A stretch of 64,000 nt of DNA from Nocardia stercoris (GTDB lineage Bacteria > Actinomycetota > Actinomycetes > Mycobacteriales > Mycobacteriaceae), in contig NZ_RFFH01000008.1 of NCBI RefSeq assembly GCF_003696265.1, forward strand, positions 186,001 through 250,000. Direction: 5' to 3'. Every line of letters starts with the position of its first letter. Position 1 is the first letter of the stretch. This document shows, piece by piece, positions 19,760 through 38,994 of the stretch. The notes under the pieces are model-generated. The model was not told where the DNA came from and did not search any database. It saw nothing but the letters and a program-made list of their open reading frames with translations. Position numbers and translations under genes: made by a program.

Positions 19760-20836
19760 TCAGGCCGTCAGGACCTGGAGAAACTCTCGGTTGATGAACA
19801 GCCGGTCTTTGCCGACCCGCCTGTCGTGCAGCATCCCCGCATCGGCCAGTGTGGCCAGCCACTTGGTTGCCGTGGGTCGCGAAACGTTGCAGCGGTCCAT
19901 CACCGTGGCGATTCTGCAGTAAGGCTGTTCGAAGAGCGCCGCCTGGAACTCCGAGTCGGCGCCGCCTTTGGTAGCGGCCCGGGCGCGTGCGGCGAAGTCG
20001 TCCTGAAGGTTGCGGATGTCGTCGATCTTGCGCACGGTCGCCTCGGACGTTCGGGTGACACCTTCGAGGATGTATAGCAACCATGGCTCCCACGCGGACT
20101 CGGCGGTCACCGCACTGAGGCATCGGTAGTACTGCTTCTTGGTGTCGATGATGTAGCGCGAGAGATAGAGCACCGGCAGATGGAGCAGGCCGGCGTGGCA
20201 GAGCATCAGGACATTGAGAATTCGCCCGGTTCGGCCGTTGCCGTCGGTGAACGGATGGATGGCCTCGAACTGGTAGTGCGCTGCGGCCATGACGATCAGG
20301 GCGTCGATGTCATCGTTGGTGTGAATGAAGTGTTCCCACTCGCCCATCTTCGTGGCGATGATGTCCCGCCCTTCAGGGGGACTGTAGATGACTGCGCCGG
20401 TGGCTGGGTTCGCGATGCGGGTGCCGGGGAGGGAGCGCAACGCCATCTCGCGGCCCTTGATCGTGCTGCACACCTCGATCGCGGTGGAGGTGGTGAGACC
20501 CCGATCGTGGATGTGGTCGTACCCGATGCGCAGGGCGCGGCGGTACCGGAGGGTTTCCCGGGTGGCCCCGTCGGCGTTAGCTTCGTCCTCGACGTGGCGA
20601 AAGAGGGCGTCAGTGGTGGTGACGATGTTCTCGATCTCCGAACTGGCCTGGGCTTCCAGCAGTGGGATCGTGTTGATCAGGACGGTCGGGTTCGGCATTG
20701 CCTTCGCGGCCTGATCCAGTTTCGCGAGGGCCTTGTTGGCGGCGATCGCGGCCTTCAGGGTGGTGTGGGTCTCCATCTGGTCGCGCGGAACTGCTGGTAG
20801 GTCGTTGTATGGCATATCCGGCCGCCAGGTCGTCAT
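19760..20836 (-). CDS. Fic-family AMPylase-like protein with autoinhibitory helix and C-terminal winged helix
   Basis: Fic/DOC protein of 358 aa. The catalytic loop is HPFTDGNGRTGR (His194 to Arg205), the full active HxFx(D/E)GNGRxxR motif, so it should transfer a nucleotide (usually AMP) to a target hydroxyl. An inhibitory (S/T)xxxE(G/N) motif is present as SSEIEN (Ser65, Glu69, Asn70), placing it in class II with the inhibitory helix N-terminal. The C-terminal 80 residues look like a winged helix (CRIATVMDRCNVSRPTATKWLATLADAGML), suggesting DNA binding and self-regulation. Start ATG 20836. The AT-rich region just upstream holds repeated CATG-containing half-sites. No separate antitoxin gene is evident. 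Confidence 0.9.
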   Translation of the reverse strand: MTTWRPDMPYNDLPAVPRDQMETHTTLKAAIAANKALAKLDQAAKAMPNPTVLINTIPLLEAQASSEIENIVTTTDALFRHVEDEANADGATRETLRYRRALRIGYDHIHDRGLTTSTAIEVCSTIKGREMALRSLPGTRIANPATGAVIYSPPEGRDIIATKMGEWEHFIHTNDDIDALIVMAAAHYQFEAIHPFTDGNGRTGRILNVLMLCHAGLLHLPVLYLSRYIIDTKKQYYRCLSAVTAESAWEPWLLYILEGVTRTSEATVRKIDDIRNLQDDFAARARAATKGGADSEFQAALFEQPYCRIATVMDRCNVSRPTATKWLATLADAGMLHDRRVGKDRLFINREFLQVLTA

Positions 20837-22018: not shown

Positions 22019-23122
22019 TTACGGTGCGACCGAACCCCAGTCGGCGAACCCGCTCGGGTCGTGCCGTCCCATGCTGGCGTGTTCGAACAGCCCGCCGCCC
22101 ACGTCGTCACCGCACCGCGCGGAGGCCGCATGGTCGATCACGCCGAACGGGATCCGCCCGGTCAGCGCCGGATCGGTGAGGTCGTACGCCTGGGACTGCG
22201 ACCAGCCCCGGCCCTTCCACTGTCCGTGCTGCCAGTCCGGGTCACCGCCGTACCCGGCGCCGACGTGCAGCGCCACGAAAGTGCGTGCGGTGACCTCGAG
22301 TTCGAGCGGTTTGCCGTCCGGGGTGGTGAGTTCCACCCGGGCGCCGAGCGGGATGCGGGTGCCGGATTTGTAGGTGAAATGCAGTCGCGGCCAGCCCAAT
22401 TGCTCGACCCGCCCGTCCTTCCAGACCCGGGTGGCGTCGTTGAGGGTGCGGAACCCGTCCGGGTTCTCCTGAATGATGATCGTGATCGTGTAGTCGTCGA
22501 AGCGCAGCGGCATGTACAGCCACCAGAAGCCGCCCGCGGGTTCGTCGGCCAGCCGGCCCGCGGGATCGGCCTCGCCGACGGGCCGGATGCCCCACGAGCG
22601 GTCCCGGGATCCGATCCACCGGTCCGGGGTGACGGCGTAGTCGGTGCCTTCCACCGCCAGCGTGCCCGACCAGGTCCCGACCTGCGCGAACCGCTGCGCG
22701 TCGATGATCGGCCGGTTCATCCCGGTGACGATCAGGTGCGGTTCCTCCTGGACGACCGGGAACGAACCGTCCCAGGTGAGGTCGAAGGCCAGGTCCTCGT
22801 GCTCGCAGATCACCCGCACCCGCTGCAGCGGTTCGACGACCTCGATCCGGTAGCCGCCCACGGCCGAGTCCAGCCCGCGCTGGGTGAGCGCGTCGGAGAA
22901 CCGCACCGCGCGTTGAGCGTTCCCGCGGCGCACGACGGCGTAGGCGTCGACCACGCCGAGGTGCGGGTACACGCCGAATCCGGTGACGAGCATGGTGTCG
23001 TCGACGGTGTCGATGGCGTTGAAGTAGTTGCGGTCGTAGAAGTTCCGGTCACTGGTGGCCGCGCGCGCCATCGGCAGCGGCGCCTGGTGGATCGGGTATT
23101 CGTCCAGCGGTCCGATGATCAT
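22019..23122 (-). CDS. Conserved hypothetical protein paired with a phosphotransferase
   Basis: Protein of 367 aa starting MIIGPLDEYPIHQ (ATG 23122; an ATG at 23137 overlapping the upstream gene is possible). It is rich in predicted beta strands, with SDRNFYDRNYFNAIDT, TWSGTLAVEGTDYAV, RDRSWGIRPVGEADPAG and WWLYMPLRFDDYTITI. I recall homologues next to aminoglycoside-phosphotransferase-like genes in mycobacteria and rhodococci, but no reaction is established; an AttH/lipocalin-like lipid-binding fold is only a guess. It lies five bases after the phosphotransferase stop and is surely in the same operon. Confidence 0.7.
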   Translation of the reverse strand: MIIGPLDEYPIHQAPLPMARAATSDRNFYDRNYFNAIDTVDDTMLVTGFGVYPHLGVVDAYAVVRRGNAQRAVRFSDALTQRGLDSAVGGYRIEVVEPLQRVRVICEHEDLAFDLTWDGSFPVVQEEPHLIVTGMNRPIIDAQRFAQVGTWSGTLAVEGTDYAVTPDRWIGSRDRSWGIRPVGEADPAGRLADEPAGGFWWLYMPLRFDDYTITIIIQENPDGFRTLNDATRVWKDGRVEQLGWPRLHFTYKSGTRIPLGARVELTTPDGKPLELEVTARTFVALHVGAGYGGDPDWQHGQWKGRGWSQSQAYDLTDPALTGRIPFGVIDHAASARCGDDVGGGLFEHASMGRHDPSGFADWGSVAP

Positions 23123-23127
23123 GTGGC

Positions 23128-24249
23128 TCAATCCCATTCGCAGGTGCCGTCGAGCAGGCTCTCCAGCAGGTGGCGGTGCATGACGTAGTCGTCGCGGTCG
23201 GCGGTGTCGGTGTCCTCGCCGAAGTGGATCATGCGCCGCTTGATCCGGGCCATCACGATGCCGTGGCGCAGCGCGGCATAGGTGAGGTACCAGTCCAGGT
23301 CCTGCGGGACGTGGCCGGTGCGTTCGGTGTACAGACGCTCGATGTCGCTGCGGCGCAAGAAGTCCGGCAGGCCCGGCTGGTCGAAGCGGGTGCAGATGTC
23401 CTGGAAGAAGCGGTGGATCAGGATCGGCCAGGCCAGGTCGAGCTCGCGCGGCCCGATCGCGGCCATCTCCCAGTCCAGTACCGCGGCCGGGGTGAAGCCG
23501 TCGAAGAGGATGTTCCCGGGGCGTGCGTCGCCCCAATTGAGCACGTCCGCACCGGATTCCGTCGGCCAGGAGTGTTCCAGTACGTCGAAGGCTCGCTCCA
23601 GCAACGGAATCCGGTAGCCGTCGCGCGCGAGCGCCCAGTCGTACCACGCCTTCTGGGCCTCGAAGTGGCGGCGCAGACCGGATCCCGGCCCGTCCAGGGT
23701 GGGGAACTTCGCGGCCGGATCTCCGATCGCGTGGATGTCGGCGATGACGTCGACGGTGTGCCGGGTCAGCTCTAGCCGCTCCTCGGGTATGGCGTCGAAG
23801 ACCCAGCCGACGAACACGTACGGCGGATTGTCCTCGCAGACCCGGCCGTCGACGCGGCTCATCACGAAGAACGGCGAGCCGAGCACGTCGGGGTCGGTCT
23901 CCAGCCAGTGCAGGCTGGGTACGGGGATGTCGGTGGCGGCCGCGACCCCGGTCATGACCGCGAACTGGCCGGCCAGGTCGTAGGTCTCGAACACCGGGAA
24001 CGAGCTGGCCTCCGGGGCCAGCCGGGCGACGAAGGACCCGCCGGTGGTCTCGCCGCCGGCTTCCCATTCGGCGTCGAAGAGCAGGGTGGCACTGGACATC
24101 CCGCCGGTCTTCGGTTTGGTGAGCGAGGTGAGCCGGGGTGGCGCGTCCGAGCCGACCCGGGTGGCCAGCCATTCGACGAGGCGGGCGGCGACGGTGTCGT
24201 CGTCGCGGTCGGAAACGGTGAGTTTCCAGCTGTGGTCCGGGGTCGACAT
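23128..24249 (-). CDS. APH-like phosphotransferase
   Basis: Aminoglycoside-phosphotransferase (APH) fold kinase of 373 aa. The catalytic loop appears as LNWGDARPGNILFDG, with the usual His replaced by Trp-Gly context but the Asp and Asn kept; the Mg-binding DWE is in AAVLDWEMAAIGPRELDLAW. The N-lobe carries LTSLTKPKTGGMSSATLLF. Relatives include kinases fused or linked to acyl-CoA dehydrogenases and acting on small alcohols or 3-hydroxyacyl groups, so lipid or steroid metabolism is more likely than drug resistance. First gene of a two-gene operon divergent from the zinc alcohol dehydrogenase, with palindromic operators in the gap. Confidence 0.82.
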   Translation of the reverse strand: MSTPDHSWKLTVSDRDDDTVAARLVEWLATRVGSDAPPRLTSLTKPKTGGMSSATLLFDAEWEAGGETTGGSFVARLAPEASSFPVFETYDLAGQFAVMTGVAAATDIPVPSLHWLETDPDVLGSPFFVMSRVDGRVCEDNPPYVFVGWVFDAIPEERLELTRHTVDVIADIHAIGDPAAKFPTLDGPGSGLRRHFEAQKAWYDWALARDGYRIPLLERAFDVLEHSWPTESGADVLNWGDARPGNILFDGFTPAAVLDWEMAAIGPRELDLAWPILIHRFFQDICTRFDQPGLPDFLRRSDIERLYTERTGHVPQDLDWYLTYAALRHGIVMARIKRRMIHFGEDTDTADRDDYVMHRHLLESLLDGTCEWD

Positions 24250-24349
24250 CGGTGTCTGAACTCCTCGTAAAAAGCGACCTGCGGGAGGCGGGCCGGAATC
24301 CGGGAACGCTGCCGGTGGCGGCGGCTGCGCGGACCGGCACGGCTATTTG

Positions 24350-24361
24350 GGAACGTGTTCC
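24350..24361. promoter_or_regulatory. Palindromic AACnnGTT operator, phosphotransferase side
   Basis: GGAACGTGTTCC is a perfect 12-bp palindrome about 100 bases upstream of the phosphotransferase start. Its AACnnGTT core is that of KstR-type and some other TetR-family sites; one outer base departs from the KstR consensus TnnAACnnGTTnnA. Confidence 0.5.
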
Positions 24362-24436
24362 ATTTCCGTGCCTTTCGCCGATTGGGCTTGCCGGTTCTCC
24401 GGTGGCACTTAGTGTGTTTTACCCGCGAAAAATTCG

Positions 24437-24450
24437 TGGAACAAGTTCTA
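24437..24450. promoter_or_regulatory. KstR-type box, dehydrogenase side
   Basis: TGGAACAAGTTCTA matches the KstR operator consensus TnnAACnnGTTnnA at every fixed position. It lies 74 bases upstream of the zinc alcohol dehydrogenase start. KstR is the TetR repressor of cholesterol catabolism in mycolic-acid actinobacteria; control by KstR here is inferred. Confidence 0.55.
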
Positions 24451-24458
24451 GAAAATCT

Positions 24459-24477
24459 TAGACCCGGGGTCTAGGAT
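24459..24477 (+). promoter_or_regulatory. Perfect palindrome overlapping a -10-like element before the alcohol dehydrogenase
   Basis: TAGACCCGGGGTCTA (24459-24473) is a perfect palindrome around one central base. TAGGAT (24472-24477), a good -10 hexamer, begins inside its right arm. A protein bound to the palindrome would block this promoter; the site differs from the neighbouring AACnnGTT boxes, so a second regulator is likely. Confidence 0.5.
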
Positions 24478-24523: not shown

Positions 24524-25612
24524 ATGGACATCACCGCTGCTGTCGCCCGCGGCGCCGACGCGCCCCTGGCATTTGAAACCGTGACTCTGGAAGACCCGCG
24601 CGCCGACGAGGTGCTGGTCCGCATCGTGGCGACCGGTGTCTGCCACACCGACCTCGTCACCAAGAGCGTGTTCCCCGCCGAACTGCCGATCGTGCTCGGC
24701 CACGAGGGCTCCGGCATCGTCGAACAGGTCGGCTCCGCGGTCACCGACGTGCGGCCCGGCGACCGCGTCCTGCTCACCTACAGCAGCTGCGGCGACTGCT
24801 CCCGCTGCACGAGCGGGCTGCCGTCGTACTGCGAGAACTTCGTCATCCTGAACACCTCCGGCGGCCGCGCGGACTTCACCTCACCGCTCAGTATCGACGG
24901 CACCCGCGTCATGGGCGCCTTCTTCGGCCAGTCCAGCTTCGCCACCCACGCCCTGGTCTCGCGGCGCAACGTGGTCGTGGTCGACCGCGACACCGACCTG
25001 GTCACCTACGCGCCGTTCGGCTGCGGGGTGCAGACCGGCGCCGGCGCGGTCGCCAACGTGATGCGGCCCCGGCCCGGCGATTCCGTGGTGATCTTCGGGG
25101 TCGGCGGCGTCGGCATGTCCGCGCTCCTGGCGGCCCGCGCCCTCGACGTCGAGAACGTGGTCGCCGTCGACCTGTCCGCCGAACGCCTGGCCGTCGCCAA
25201 GGAGCTGGGCGCCTCGACCGTCATCGACGGCGCCGCCGAAGATGTTGTGGCCCAAGTGCATGCCGCGACCGGCGGCGGCGCGACCTTCGCCCTGGACACC
25301 ACCGCACTGAACCCGGTGATCGCCACTGCGCTGCAGGCGCTGGCCCCCATGGGCACCCTGGTCCTGGTCGGGCTCGGCGAGCCCACCATGGACCTGGAGA
25401 TCGGCCACCTCACCGGCAACGGCAAGGCCGTGCGGGGTTGCATCGAAGGTAGTTGCGACCCACAGGAATTCATTCCACAGCTGATCGCCTGGCACCGGGC
25501 CGGGAAGTTCCCGATCGAGAAGGTCATCCGCACCTACCCGTTCTGGGAGATCAACCAGGCCGTGCACGACGCCGAGTCCGGCAGCACCATCAAACCCGTT
25601 CTGGTGCTCTAG
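24524..25612 (+). CDS. Zinc-dependent NAD(P) alcohol dehydrogenase (aryl/terpenyl-alcohol type)
   Basis: Medium-chain zinc alcohol dehydrogenase of 362 aa. Catalytic zinc ligands are in GVCHTDL and GHEGSG; the structural zinc loop is CGDCSRCTSGLPSYC. The Rossmann motif is FGVGGVGMSALLAA. Sequence style fits benzyl/geraniol-type dehydrogenases (XylB-like) that oxidise primary alcohols to aldehydes with NAD+. Divergent from the phosphotransferase operon, with a KstR-type box and a separate palindrome in its promoter, so an inducible catabolic role is likely. It overlaps the convergent gene at its 3' end by four bases. Confidence 0.9.
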   Translation: MDITAAVARGADAPLAFETVTLEDPRADEVLVRIVATGVCHTDLVTKSVFPAELPIVLGHEGSGIVEQVGSAVTDVRPGDRVLLTYSSCGDCSRCTSGLPSYCENFVILNTSGGRADFTSPLSIDGTRVMGAFFGQSSFATHALVSRRNVVVVDRDTDLVTYAPFGCGVQTGAGAVANVMRPRPGDSVVIFGVGGVGMSALLAARALDVENVVAVDLSAERLAVAKELGASTVIDGAAEDVVAQVHAATGGGATFALDTTALNPVIATALQALAPMGTLVLVGLGEPTMDLEIGHLTGNGKAVRGCIEGSCDPQEFIPQLIAWHRAGKFPIEKVIRTYPFWEINQAVHDAESGSTIKPVLVL

Positions 25613-35255: not shown

Positions 35256-36320
35256 TCAGAACTGGATCTTGACCTCGTCGGTGACCGGGTGGGCCTGGCA
35301 GCCGAGGATGTAACCGTTGGCGATGTCCTGCTCGTCGAGGATCTCGCAGTGGTCCATCTCGACCTTGCCGGACAGCACCGTGCAGGCGCAGGAGCCGCAC
35401 TCGCCCTCCTGGCAGGAGTAGGGCACGTCCAGGCCCTTGTCCAGCATGATGTCGACCAGAGTCCGGCTGCGCGGCCAGCTCATGGTGTGCACCTCGCCGT
35501 CGAGTTCGACCTCGACGGTGGCCGCGTCGGCGGCCTCCTCCGCGGTGACCTCGACGATCTCGTGCTCGGCGAACGGGTCACCGGACAGCGAGTTGAAGAC
35601 CTCGGCGTGGATGCGCTCGCGCGGCACCGACAGCTGGGCCAGCGCCGCGTGGACGACGTCCATGAACGGGCCGGGACCACACATGAAGGACTGGTACTCG
35701 GTGTAGGGGCCGGCCAGCTCGGCCAGGGCGGCCGCGTCCGGGAAGCCGCCGCGCTCGGACTCCAGCCAGGGCAGGATGGTGAGCCGATCCGGGTGCGCCG
35801 CAGTCAGTTCCGCGAGTTCGGTGGCGAAGATGACCGACTCGGGGTCGCGGTTGGCGTAGATCACCACGACCTGGCCGGTGCCGCGGATCAGCGCCGACTT
35901 CAGGATCGACATGATCGGCGTGACGCCGCTGCCGGCCGCGAAGAGCAGCAGGTCGGCGTTCAGGTCCTTGGGGGTGAACAGGCCCGAGGGCGGCAGCACC
36001 TCGATCCGGTCGCCGGCGTGGACGTTGTCGCACACCCAGTTCGAGGCGTAACCGTCGACGGTCCGTTTCACCGTGACCTTCGGGGCCTCACCGGTGTGCG
36101 GCGAGCTGGCCAGCGAGTAGCAGCGGGCCACCGAACCGGTGCGGTCGCTGGGGATGCGCAGGGTGAGGAACTGGCCGGGGAGGTAGCTGAACCGCTCGGC
36201 GAGTTCCTCGGGAACGTCGAACACCAGCGAGCACGCGTCCGCCGTCTCGGCGATCACCTGCTGGACGCGCAGCACGGCCGAACGCGAGGTGTGGGGGACG
36301 ACGGGGTCCACGGTGGTCAT
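35256..36320 (-). CDS. kshB: 3-ketosteroid-9-alpha-hydroxylase reductase component
   Basis: Iron-sulfur flavoprotein reductase of 354 aa that feeds electrons from NADH to KshA for steroid ring opening. FAD-binding RCYSLASSP, NAD-binding AGSGVTPIMSIL and CGPGPFMDVVH, then a C-terminal plant-type [2Fe-2S] ferredoxin domain with Cys in SCQEGECGSCACTV and the fourth in ILGCQAHP. DIANGYILGCQA closely matches KshB of mycobacteria, and a perfect KstR-type box 91 bases upstream supports a steroid role. Other class I reductases (HmpX, PaaE type) share this layout. Complete, cytosolic. The KshA oxygenase is not in the window, as is usual. Confidence 0.9.
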   Translation of the reverse strand: MTTVDPVVPHTSRSAVLRVQQVIAETADACSLVFDVPEELAERFSYLPGQFLTLRIPSDRTGSVARCYSLASSPHTGEAPKVTVKRTVDGYASNWVCDNVHAGDRIEVLPPSGLFTPKDLNADLLLFAAGSGVTPIMSILKSALIRGTGQVVVIYANRDPESVIFATELAELTAAHPDRLTILPWLESERGGFPDAAALAELAGPYTEYQSFMCGPGPFMDVVHAALAQLSVPRERIHAEVFNSLSGDPFAEHEIVEVTAEEAADAATVEVELDGEVHTMSWPRSRTLVDIMLDKGLDVPYSCQEGECGSCACTVLSGKVEMDHCEILDEQDIANGYILGCQAHPVTDEVKIQF

Positions 36321-36410
36321 GATGTCCTCTCGGGGCCTGGCGGTGGAACAGGTGCGGCACCGACCCTAGCGGGCGGGCCGAGACGGCCGATTCCGGACGT
36401 CCTACCAAAC

Positions 36411-36424
36411 TATAACCTGTTCTA
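36411..36424. promoter_or_regulatory. KstR-type operator of kshB
   Basis: TATAACCTGTTCTA matches the KstR consensus TnnAACnnGTTnnA at all fixed positions. It lies 91 bases upstream of the kshB start in an AT-rich patch (CAAACTATAACCTGTTCTAG), as expected for a promoter-overlapping repressor site. Confidence 0.75.
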
Positions 36425-36484
36425 GTTTTGTCGCGCGACGCGTCGACCCAGATTTTTACTGTGGGACGATTCACCCAGGTCGGC

Positions 36485-37102
36485 TCAGCCCGCCGAGTAG
36501 TCCGCGGCGGTCAGCTGGGCCTCCAGGCCCGCGATGATCACGTTCATTCCGAAGTCGTAGCCGTACTTCCCGCGCAGGTCGCCCATGTGCGGCATGACCC
36601 GCGCCACCGCGTCCGGCCAGGGCAGGTCCTGGGGCGCGGTGTCGCGGGGGTTCACCCGGGCCCGGCCGAACAGATAGGTGTGGATGGTGGCGTAGGCCGA
36701 GAGCGCGTTGCGCTCGTCGAACCCGGCGTCGAACAGGATCTCGAGCACCGCCGCGATCAGATCCAGCTGCTTGCTCAGCATCTGTTCGATCAACAGGTCG
36801 CCGAGGCCCGGATGCTTGCGCAGCTTCTCGTCGATCTGGTCGACCAGATCACGCAACCGCTGCTGCCACGGGCCCGAATCGGGCGCGGGCGCCCGCACTC
36901 CGGTCAGGGCCGCGGTCGCCACCAGATCGAGCAGTTCCCGTTTGTCGGCGACGTAGTAGTAGGGGGCCATGGGCGAGACGCCGAGCTCCCGGGACAGCCG
37001 GCGCATCGACAGTTTCGCCACGCCGTCCTCGCGGACCACGCGCAGTGCCGCCTCGACGATCTCCGCCTCGGACAGCGCGTTTCCGCCCCCACTCGACTGC
37101 AT
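36485..37102 (-). CDS. TetR-family transcriptional regulator
   Basis: TetR repressor of 205 aa from ATG 37102 (MQSSGGGNALS), with GGGAG eight bases upstream; ATG 37117 is possible. HTH: LSEAEIVEAALRVVREDGVAKLSMRRLSRELGVSPMAPYYYVADKRELLDL, with the Tet-type MxxYYYVxxK helix. The ligand domain has a TetR_C style (LIEQMLSKQLDLIAAVLEILFDAGF). It is divergent from mftF across a 428-base gap and directly upstream of kshB on the same strand. It could regulate either. It is not obviously MftR or KstR; the target is not known. Confidence 0.88.
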   Translation of the reverse strand: MQSSGGGNALSEAEIVEAALRVVREDGVAKLSMRRLSRELGVSPMAPYYYVADKRELLDLVATAALTGVRAPAPDSGPWQQRLRDLVDQIDEKLRKHPGLGDLLIEQMLSKQLDLIAAVLEILFDAGFDERNALSAYATIHTYLFGRARVNPRDTAPQDLPWPDAVARVMPHMGDLRGKYGYDFGMNVIIAGLEAQLTAADYSAG

Positions 37103-37530
37103 TCTTGCGACTCCCATGTCACCTCGTGCGTGCCGGTCCGCAGGCCTCGGGTGGCGCTCGCGGCCCCCGTCGTCAGCCGGCACCACACCCTGCTCCGTTG
37201 TGCACTGCTCGAATTCCTTCCGCAGTCTAGTGCCCAGTCCCGGCAGCCAGGTGCGAGAACGAGCGCAACCGTGCCGATCGGCGGCGGGCCGGGGATCCGC
37301 GAGCGGGACTGTGCTGCCGGGGGATTGCCGAGCGTTACTCGACTTACGGTCGCGAATTGCCGACAGAAACCTGTCACGAAGTTTGCGAGACCATTGCCGC
37401 CGAATTTTCGCAGCGTTCACAGCCCGTCGTCGGGCGGTCGCGCAGGGCGGCCGGACTTTTCGCGGCGAAATCCCCGCGGTTTTTCCGACACGCACGGCTG
37501 CGGCGCCGATCACCCCCTAACATTCCTGGA
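37103..37530. other. Divergent regulatory region between tetR and mftF
   Basis: No gene is supported. Readings extending mftF or tetR into it do not resemble protein. A/T content rises toward the right half (CCGAATTTTCGCAGC near 37399), where the mftF promoter should lie. I could not pick a clear operator. Confidence 0.4.
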
Positions 37531-38994
37531 ATGCGCCATGGTCGATTGCCGGACGGGTTCGGGGTGCGAATCGATCCGCGGGTGCGTGCTTACTCGGGTG
37601 GTCGAATCCTCGTCGGTGGCTCGCCGGCCAGGTTGCTGCGACTGGCCCCGGAGGCGGCCGCCCTGATCGGAGACGGCTACCTCGAGGTCACCGACCCCAC
37701 CTCAGCCTCGGTCGCCCGGAGATTGCTGGACTCCGGCGTGGCCAATCCGCGTCCGCGCCTGCTGCCCGCGCCCGAGGACGTCACCGTGGTCGTGCCCTAT
37801 CGCGACGACCACGACGGCCTGGTCCGGCTGCTCGCCGGCCTGCGCGGGCACAGTGTGGTCGTCGTCGACGACGGCTCGTCCCGCCCGGTCCGGCTGCCCG
37901 CCGACCGCGGCCGCTGCCGGGTCACCGTGCTGCGCCACGACCGCGCGCTCGGCCCGGCCGCCGCCCGCGACAGTGGACTGCGCGCGGCCACTACCGAATT
38001 CGTGGCGCTGCTCGATCCGGCCGTGGTGCCGCGAGCCGGCTGGCTCGAGGTGATGCTCGGGCACTTCAGCGACCCCGAGGTGGCACTGGTCGCCCCGCGG
38101 ATCGTGGCGCACGAGGCCTACACCACCGTGCTGGGCCGCTACGAGCACACGCGGTCCGAGCTGGACCGGGGGCGGCGCGAGGCCGAGGTCTCCGCCGGTG
38201 GCGCGGTGCCACGCGTGCCCGACACCGCGCTGCTGGTGCGGCGCCGGGCCCTGCTGGCCGCCGGCGGATTCACCGGCACCCGGCCGGTCACAGCCGACAG
38301 CGACCCGGCCGCCGACCTGTGCGCCCGCCTGGAACGCGATGGTTGGCGACTGCGCTACGAGCCCGCGGCCCGGGTCACCTGTGACCATCCGGTCTCGTTC
38401 GGAAAGTGGTTCGCGCGCAAGGTGAATCACGGTGCCGCCGAGGCGCCGCAGGCCCGCCGGACCGTGGCCGGCCCGCAGCAGCCGCCTGCCCCGGCCTGGG
38501 CGGCGGTGGCCGCGATCATGCTGTCCAGCCTCACCAGGTGGGGGCTGCTGGGTGGTGTGGTCACGATCGCCGCCGCGGTACTCCGATTGCGCCGGGCCTT
38601 CATCGAACTCGACAACCCGGCCGAGATGGCCGCCCTGTGCGCCGGCCGCGCGCTCACCGCCGCGCTGTGGCGCCTCGCCTCGGCGGTGTGCCGAAACTAT
38701 TGGCCGTTGACGGTTCTGGCGATGCTGGTGTCGCGGCGGGTGCGCCGGATCGCGGTGACCATGGCGGTGGCCGACGGGATCGCCGACTGGTACACCCACC
38801 GCGACACCGGCGGACTCGACCCGGTCCGCTACGTGGTGTGCAAGCGCCTGGACGATCTGGCGTACGGCACCGGCGTGTGGTGGGCGTCGCTACTGAGCAT
38901 GCTGGCCGCCCGCGCGGCCCGCCGGGGCCGGCCCGAGCCCGCCCCTACGCCCCCGCCGGCACCTCGGCGGGCGGCGGTACTCACCTGCGTCTGA
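37531..38994 (+). CDS. mftF: Mycofactocin glycosyltransferase MftF
   Basis: Family-2 glycosyltransferase of 487 aa resembling MftF, which adds a glucose chain to the redox cofactor mycofactocin. It begins RLPDGFGVRIDPRVRAYSGG, LVGGSPARLLRLAPEAAALI, the MftF-type N-terminal part. The GT2 domain follows with VTVVVPYRDDHDGLVRLLAGL and VVVVDDGSSRPV. The C-terminal membrane-associated region (AVAAIMLSSLTRWGLLGGVVTIAAAVL onward) and VRYVVCKRLDDLAYGTGVWW fit. Start ATG 37531 is the first in-frame start with family-like sequence. mftA-E are not in the window, so it is unlinked here. A strong terminator follows. Confidence 0.85.
   Translation: MRHGRLPDGFGVRIDPRVRAYSGGRILVGGSPARLLRLAPEAAALIGDGYLEVTDPTSASVARRLLDSGVANPRPRLLPAPEDVTVVVPYRDDHDGLVRLLAGLRGHSVVVVDDGSSRPVRLPADRGRCRVTVLRHDRALGPAAARDSGLRAATTEFVALLDPAVVPRAGWLEVMLGHFSDPEVALVAPRIVAHEAYTTVLGRYEHTRSELDRGRREAEVSAGGAVPRVPDTALLVRRRALLAAGGFTGTRPVTADSDPAADLCARLERDGWRLRYEPAARVTCDHPVSFGKWFARKVNHGAAEAPQARRTVAGPQQPPAPAWAAVAAIMLSSLTRWGLLGGVVTIAAAVLRLRRAFIELDNPAEMAALCAGRALTAALWRLASAVCRNYWPLTVLAMLVSRRVRRIAVTMAVADGIADWYTHRDTGGLDPVRYVVCKRLDDLAYGTGVWWASLLSMLAARAARRGRPEPAPTPPPAPRRAAVLTCV

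Follow-up and report, generated by a model that had tools for sequence, protein, structure and literature searches.

The 64,000-nucleotide stretch of Nocardia stercoris analysed here (assembly GCF_003696265.1, contig NZ_RFFH01000008.1, positions 186,001 to 250,000 of the forward strand; hereafter the window) raises the question of which of its transcription units belong to the regulon of the steroid repressor KstR. The KstR regulon described for Mycobacterium tuberculosis and M. smegmatis (PMC1995591, cited here, like the other papers below, from part of its text) is alike in having a TetR repressor, TnnAACnnGTTnnA operators, and kshB among other steroid genes. An earlier note, made from the sequence alone, had placed one KstR-type box upstream of the steroid 9-alpha-hydroxylase reductase gene kshB and another upstream of a zinc alcohol dehydrogenase gene, adh, and had suggested from the latter that the dehydrogenase, and perhaps the divergent phosphotransferase operon, belong to the regulon. 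With a probability of roughly two in three, we propose that the window carries three KstR operators serving three transcription units, namely kshB, adh and the phosphotransferase operon, the last of which would encode a steroid kinase and lyase.

To define the candidate operators, the window was searched with the pattern TnnAACnnGTTnnA, which has eight fixed positions, and the chance level was set by 100 shuffles of the 64-kb sequence. Matches were found only at 36411-36424 and 24437-24450, each at 8/8 fixed positions, so that both boxes of the earlier note were confirmed at their coordinates; the shuffled windows held 0.10 matches on average and a single shuffle reached two. Over the whole genome (7.5 Mb in 57 contigs) the pattern matched 63 times and a reversed control pattern 19 times, roughly two thirds of the matches thus being in excess over the control. 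A weight matrix was also built from the 44 published KstR sites of M. tuberculosis and M. smegmatis (PMC1995591 Table 3), which themselves score 17.4-32.1 bits in leave-one-out mode. By this measure the best sites of the window are 36411 (27.8 bits), 24349 (18.3 bits) and 24437 (13.3 bits), the fourth reaching 8.6 bits. The kshB box TATAACCTGTTCTA (36411..36424) lies 90 bp upstream of the kshB start. The second-best site, GGGAACGTGTTCCA (24349..24362), which is absent from the earlier note, matches 7/8 fixed positions with one outer mismatch and lies 99 bp upstream of the kinase start; both of these boxes score within the published range. The adh box TGGAACAAGTTCTA (24437..24450) lies 73 bp upstream of the adh start. 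Its low score is due in part to its AA centre, and with the two centre columns dropped the adh, kinase and kshB boxes score 17.2, 16.3 and 28.4 bits, respectively.

The kshB gene (35256..36320, reverse strand) encodes a 3-ketosteroid 9alpha-hydroxylase reductase with Pfam domains for FAD, NAD and 2Fe-2S, and its assignment by the earlier note as the gene behind the 36411 box held up. The box was present in all 59 orthologue promoters examined (39/39 from Nocardia and 20/20 from other genera), always at 23.5 bits or more; these were the promoters of the best-scoring and family-sample matches, 149 Nocardia genomes having the gene. In each of Mycobacterium asiaticum, M. chubuense and M. numidiamassiliense, the best kshB match faces hsaA in divergent orientation and is accompanied by two KstR boxes, and the same arrangement of hsaA and a reductase gene is reported for Rv3570c/Rv3571 (PMC1995591). 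These three mycobacterial reductases score 379-398 bits against the KshB of the window versus 341-357 bits against its paralogue on contig C20, and, judged from three of the three named Mycobacterium genomes, the window KshB is predicted to be orthologous to the hsaA-divergent reductase. Two findings count against this orthology: the identity to the mycobacterial reductases is only 56-61%, and none of the 59 kshB loci showed hsaA at a distance of up to 1.5 kb.

The C20 paralogue (C20:49656-50690) is a second KshB-like reductase of 63% identity and carries no strong KstR box; four KshB paralogues likewise lack a box, as does the gene that best matches kshB in a named Nocardioides. Within 35256-38994, kshB stands together with genes for the regulator MftR2 (365 bits) and the mycofactocin glycosyltransferase MftF (460 bits). 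MftR2 adjoins kshB in 39/39 Nocardia loci examined, and this suggests a link between steroid and mycofactocin metabolism. In six of the 39 loci a second KstR-type site (15.6-24.1 bits) was found about 0.9-1.0 kb upstream of kshB, beyond the far side of MftR2, which may itself belong to the regulon in these genomes.

The phosphotransferase operon consists of a kinase gene (23128..24249, reverse strand) and a lyase gene (22019..23122, reverse strand). The kinase was found in 147/150 Nocardia genomes, and 77 of its promoters were examined at a threshold of 15 bits: a first set of 37, made of the 30 best matches and seven from the family sample, and a second set of 40 drawn from lower-ranked rows. 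A box was present in 72/77 promoters (36/37 in the first set and 36/40 in the second), at positions much like that of the box in the window; none of 2000 Markov-resampled promoters reached 15 bits, and outside the upstream window no hit occurred in the first set (134 kb over 37 loci). A survey of 80 named lyase loci, three of them without kinase and four ending before the promoter, gave a box in 22/26 Nocardia loci with promoter sequence (overlapping the set of 77), in 8/8 Nocardioides-type loci, whose kinases share only about 42-44% identity, and in one Planotetraspora. The link between kinase and box is strong in Nocardia and the Nocardioides group, whereas the mycobacteria examined show none. 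Two of the Rhodococcus loci (L249 and L255) have the lyase with neither kinase nor box, and a third (L269), also without kinase, has an 18.3-bit site 0.6 kb upstream.

The earlier note had brought the phosphotransferase operon into the regulon through the 24437 box. Its membership is supported, more strongly than that of adh, through a different site, the box at 24349-24362. A single 24437 box serving both divergent units was rejected, as a box of its own precedes the kinase, and 29/29 other Nocardia kinase loci have a kinase box but no adh. In all 29, one of them a fragment, a conserved membrane protein with a weak DoxX_2 match is divergent to the kinase (for instance L113:2-1117) and may share its box; this protein is absent from the window, where adh occupies the divergent side instead. 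The term 'phosphotransferase' does not appear in the main-text parts consulted of the Nocardioides simplex transcriptome papers, of PMC3388012 or of PMC4881515.

The identity of the operon's products offers a biochemical reason for a link to the steroid regulon, namely their homology to 25-hydroxy-steroid kinase (25-HSK) and 25-phosphosteroid lyase (25-PSL). Pfam recognises the kinase only as APH. Its residues 3-373 align with the solved structures 9fsg, 9ft5 and 9fu5 at an E-value of 7.1e-84, and its predicted model (mean predicted local distance difference test score, pLDDT, 89.1) superposes on the 25-hydroxy steroid kinase 9ft5 with a Z-score of 41.6 at 39% identity. The lyase belongs to the 'Rv3169 family' (NF053593, 455 bits); at a limit of E 1 its only matches among solved structures are the 25-PSL entries 9fzn, 9g2i and 9g4c (E 3.1e-72, residues 1-342 of 360), and its model (pLDDT 84.5) superposes on 9g2i, a 25-PSL with phosphate, with Z 41.4 at 39% identity. 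By alignment and predicted structure, then, the two products are full-length homologues of 25-HSK and 25-PSL with the same folds. A role of the 'phosphotransferase' in aminoglycoside resistance was ruled out by Z-scores of about 20 for APH(2'') and APH(4) versus about 41 for 25-HSK. The lyase gene lies directly behind the kinase gene in 37/37 Nocardia loci; at one locus (L125, contig C44 of genome G192) the kinase gene has one internal stop next to a full-length lyase gene. Jacoby et al. 2021 (PMC8449060) isolated 25-HSK from Sterolibacterium and pointed to relatives in actinobacteria with identities reaching 46%, no lyase gene being named in the portion of text consulted; the structures 9ft5 and 9g2i were released in January 2026. 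As regards the enzyme names 25-HSK and 25-PSL, the library searched held only PMC8449060 and Zhan et al. 2024 (PMC11061730), and a separate structure paper may exist outside it.

The third unit, adh (24524..25612, forward strand), encodes a zinc medium-chain dehydrogenase/reductase (MDR) of the benzyl/aryl-alcohol type according to Pfam, and resembles benzyl alcohol dehydrogenase (PDB 1f8f) and 5tnx over its full length. Residues C40, H60, C89, C92, C95, C103 and C167 are invariant in 13 orthologues. We take C40, H60 and C167 to be the ligands of the catalytic zinc and C89, C92, C95 and C103 those of the structural zinc. Homologues at an E-value of 1e-130 or better occur in 21 of the 150 Nocardia genomes searched, and a box was found at every one of the 17 Nocardia orthologues with 74% identity or more, beginning 53-96 bp ahead of the start. 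Seven of these 17 boxes are perfect and ten share a common last-base A-to-T exchange, the other fixed positions being invariant; those of the 16 orthologues from other genomes score 19.7-26.1 bits, versus 13.3 bits here. Their presence at 17/17 orthologues led us to set aside pure chance as the origin of the adh box.

The genes around the boxed adh vary between groups of genomes. In ten genomes adh stands alone between atpC, of the ATP synthase operon, and a DUF2550/cobO/murA block, as read from gene sizes in all ten and from protein starts in three; several of these contigs end about 4-5 kb from adh. Of the other seven, four carry a gene for a flavin-dependent oxidoreductase (Pfam Amino_oxidase; L072:2246-3766 and its counterparts in L073, L075 and L077) that runs divergently from adh and could be served by the same KstR box; the L072 locus also has a P450 gene downstream. 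A delta-24 desaturase function for the flavoprotein was rejected on a comparison with PDB entries, which gave only a weak match, to an aminooxidase. The remaining three contexts, this genome included, differ, and the arrangement of adh facing the kinase operon is that of this genome, neither kinase nor lyase being found in the 16 other adh contexts. Around the box, the flanks average 63% conservation in the first subgroup of orthologues. Taken together, the comparative evidence supports the earlier note's proposal that adh is a member of the steroid regulon.

This membership would not extend to the whole family. No box was found at four adh homologues of 58-63% identity or at 27 further homologues of the family sample, and, with 350 bp scanned, none of these 31 distant homologues exceeded 11.9 bits, which ruled out a regulon comprising all of them. 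None of 25 dehydrogenase promoters from seven named genomes reached 15 bits (the best being just under 15.0), and in five named mycobacteria the closest adh matches have at most 38% identity. In the interval that separates the adh box from the start of adh, the window has a further palindrome, TAGACCCGGGGTCTA (24459-24473, with 7-bp arms), which is not present in the 16 orthologue loci and is possibly a second operator.

We also examined the regulator and its other boxes. One protein of the genome exceeds the NCBIfam cut-off for KstR (327.6 bits versus 280; contig C7), and it aligns with the solved KstR 5cw8 over 181 residues (E 1.3e-77). Upstream of its gene, between kstR and a divergent gene, lies the box TAGAACATGTTCTA (C7:16336-16349). 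Twenty box regions were inspected, covering many of the stronger sites rather than all 63. Boxes were seen to precede the steroid genes for KstD (958 bits), a steroid 3-ketoacyl-CoA thiolase (664 bits), an operon with HsaD (494 bits) and a steroid-22-oyl-CoA synthetase of the CasI family (920 bits), as well as a cholesterol-oxidase-like gene (105 bits, far below the family cut-off). The AA centre of the adh box is shared by the boxes of the CasI-family synthetase and the cholesterol-oxidase-like gene, and occurs in none of the published set as given in the part of PMC1995591 used. The sites of that paper that were positive in electrophoretic mobility shift assays (EMSA) include one with an outer A-to-T mismatch, one with an outer A-to-G mismatch and TAGAACGTGTTACA. 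Elsewhere in the window, 19760-20836 encodes a Fic-domain protein adenylyltransferase of the SoFic type, at a score below the equivalog cut-off.

A number of observations weigh against KstR control of all three units. The adh box scores below every published site (at least 17.4 bits). In the ten-genome subgroup its flanks and its own variable positions are equally conserved, at 85%, and this subgroup consequently adds little. Five of the 77 Nocardia kinase promoters fall below 15 bits (13.0, 10.0, 10.0, 10.0 and 4.4). The box was found in 0/30 Mycobacterium or Mycolicibacterium loci, in 0/2 Rhodococcus loci with kinase and in 0/6 other actinobacterial loci; in the family sample, where 100/151 genomes have the kinase, it was found in only 5/19 promoters outside Nocardia (20 loci being returned, with a 12.3-bit site at one locus on a contig end). 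KstR was found in 150/150 Nocardia genomes searched, which leaves no KstR-less genome as a negative control for the motif. Some strong boxes adjoin genes without an evident steroid role, such as leuS, and at C23:375740 (L109:3041-3066) two neighbouring sites of the AAC..GTT type (17.3 and 17.5 bits) next to a TetR gene whose match to KstR is weak (45 bits) may be look-alike operators of another regulator; for both reasons the motif is no proof of control by KstR. A motif site at Rv0223c with an outer mismatch failed to bind KstR (PMC1995591). The identity of the operon products to 25-HSK and 25-PSL is only 38-39%, Rv3168 (3ats) is as near to the kinase as 25-HSK is (Z 41.0, 40% identity), and the passages dealing with Rv3168 report no steroid role for it. 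KstR binding, induction by sterols and the substrates of kinase, lyase and adh are predicted from sequence.

These points open the way to other explanations. The boxes at 24349 and 24437 might be operators of another TetR repressor with a KstR-like motif, a KstR paralogue or an Rv3167c-like protein, the genes then lying outside the cholesterol regulon. In M. tuberculosis Rv3168-Rv3169 are repressed by Rv3167c, the TetR product of a divergent gene, which binds to a palindrome at this locus (PMC5340868), and the present genome has both a KstR paralogue (C13:51174, 110 bits) and a TetR gene with AACACGTT-type boxes of its own. However, no TetR gene was seen on the divergent side of the kinase operon, this position being taken by the DoxX-like homologue in 29/29 other kinase loci and by adh here, and many of the Nocardia kinase boxes are identical, except for the centre, to the EMSA-proven KstR site TAGAACGTGTTACATTTC; we consider another repressor improbable. 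An accidental or decaying site at adh, with the gene outside KstR control in this genome, would agree with the score of 13.3 bits and with the rate in random sequence, where about one site in every Mb reaches 13 bits. Against this, the box sits at a position comparable to that of the 19.7-26.1-bit boxes of the 16 orthologues, and boxes with an AA centre precede other steroid-type genes of the same genome, so that we regard a defunct site as unlikely.

The substrate of the operon is a separate matter. Kinase and lyase could be controlled by KstR and yet dehydrate another tertiary alcohol, for example an isoprenoid, rather than a 25-hydroxy sterol. The near equidistance of the kinase from 25-HSK (39%) and Rv3168 (40%) would fit such a role, as would the fact that aerobes already oxidise C26 by P450s such as CYP125, which makes a C25 route unneeded for cholesterol (PMC11061730); set against these is the steroid-type promoter context of the operon, and an isoprenoid or similar substrate appears to us doubtful, if conceivable.

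Under the three-operator reading, a KstR dimer would sit on each palindrome and block the promoter until released by intermediates of sterol breakdown, a step suggested by the motif and its conservation. The kstR box of M. tuberculosis overlaps the -10 region in part. Release would yield KshB, which passes electrons to the ring-opening hydroxylase, from the first unit. From the second, the kinase would use ATP to phosphorylate a tertiary alcohol on the steroid side chain and the lyase would expel the phosphate to leave an alkene, as their 38-39% identity to 25-HSK and 25-PSL and the shared folds of their models would imply. From the third, adh may oxidise a steroid alcohol, possibly the activated, allylic C26 alcohol made from such an alkene. 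This last step is conjecture: of the 17 genomes whose adh carries a box, this is the sole one in which adh and the kinase were found side by side.

We take Rv1895 to be a zinc-type dehydrogenase. In the published table Rv1894c/Rv1895 is listed at a KstR site (PMC1995591), and, on this reading of Rv1895, a dehydrogenase in the KstR regulon may not be new in kind. The adh of the window resembles benzyl alcohol dehydrogenase (1f8f) and 5tnx as a zinc MDR enzyme and differs from them in having a steroid-type operator. The regulon table, in the part consulted, lists no site at Rv3168-Rv3169, unlike the boxed kinase of Nocardia (PMC1995591). M. tuberculosis has the same pair in one operon, an Rv3168-like kinase and an Rv3169-family lyase (PMC5340868; 3ats), under the local TetR regulator Rv3167c, whereas the Nocardia loci inspected showed no such regulator next to the operon.

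The lineage of Nocardia is aerobic. The organism of 25-HSK and 25-PSL, Sterolibacterium denitrificans (PMC8449060; 9ft5, 9fsg, 9fzn, 9g2i and 9g4c), is anaerobic and, according to the part of PMC8449060 consulted, has no lyase candidate near its kinase gene, whereas the full-length Nocardia homologues of the two enzymes are encoded by adjacent genes behind a KstR-type box. The finding thus joins the aerobic KstR regulon with the anaerobic 25-HSK/25-PSL dehydration pair, a connection of which the literature examined gave no instance. Most likely, the aerobic regulon would hold a module for the ATP-dependent dehydration of steroid tertiary alcohols, with an accessory zinc dehydrogenase in some Nocardia. 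More tentatively, we suggest that in Nocardia and Nocardioides this module forms a branch for the dehydration of C25 alcohols, that a boxed adh oxidises the allylic C26 alcohol in some Nocardia, and that the Rv3168-Rv3169 family has a role in the dehydration of steroids or isoprenoids. Aerobes are thereby predicted to process tertiary steroid alcohols, such as 25-hydroxysterols, via phosphorylation and elimination, which would give a testable function to a widespread gene pair so far carrying only the automatic names of phosphotransferase-family and Rv3169-family protein.
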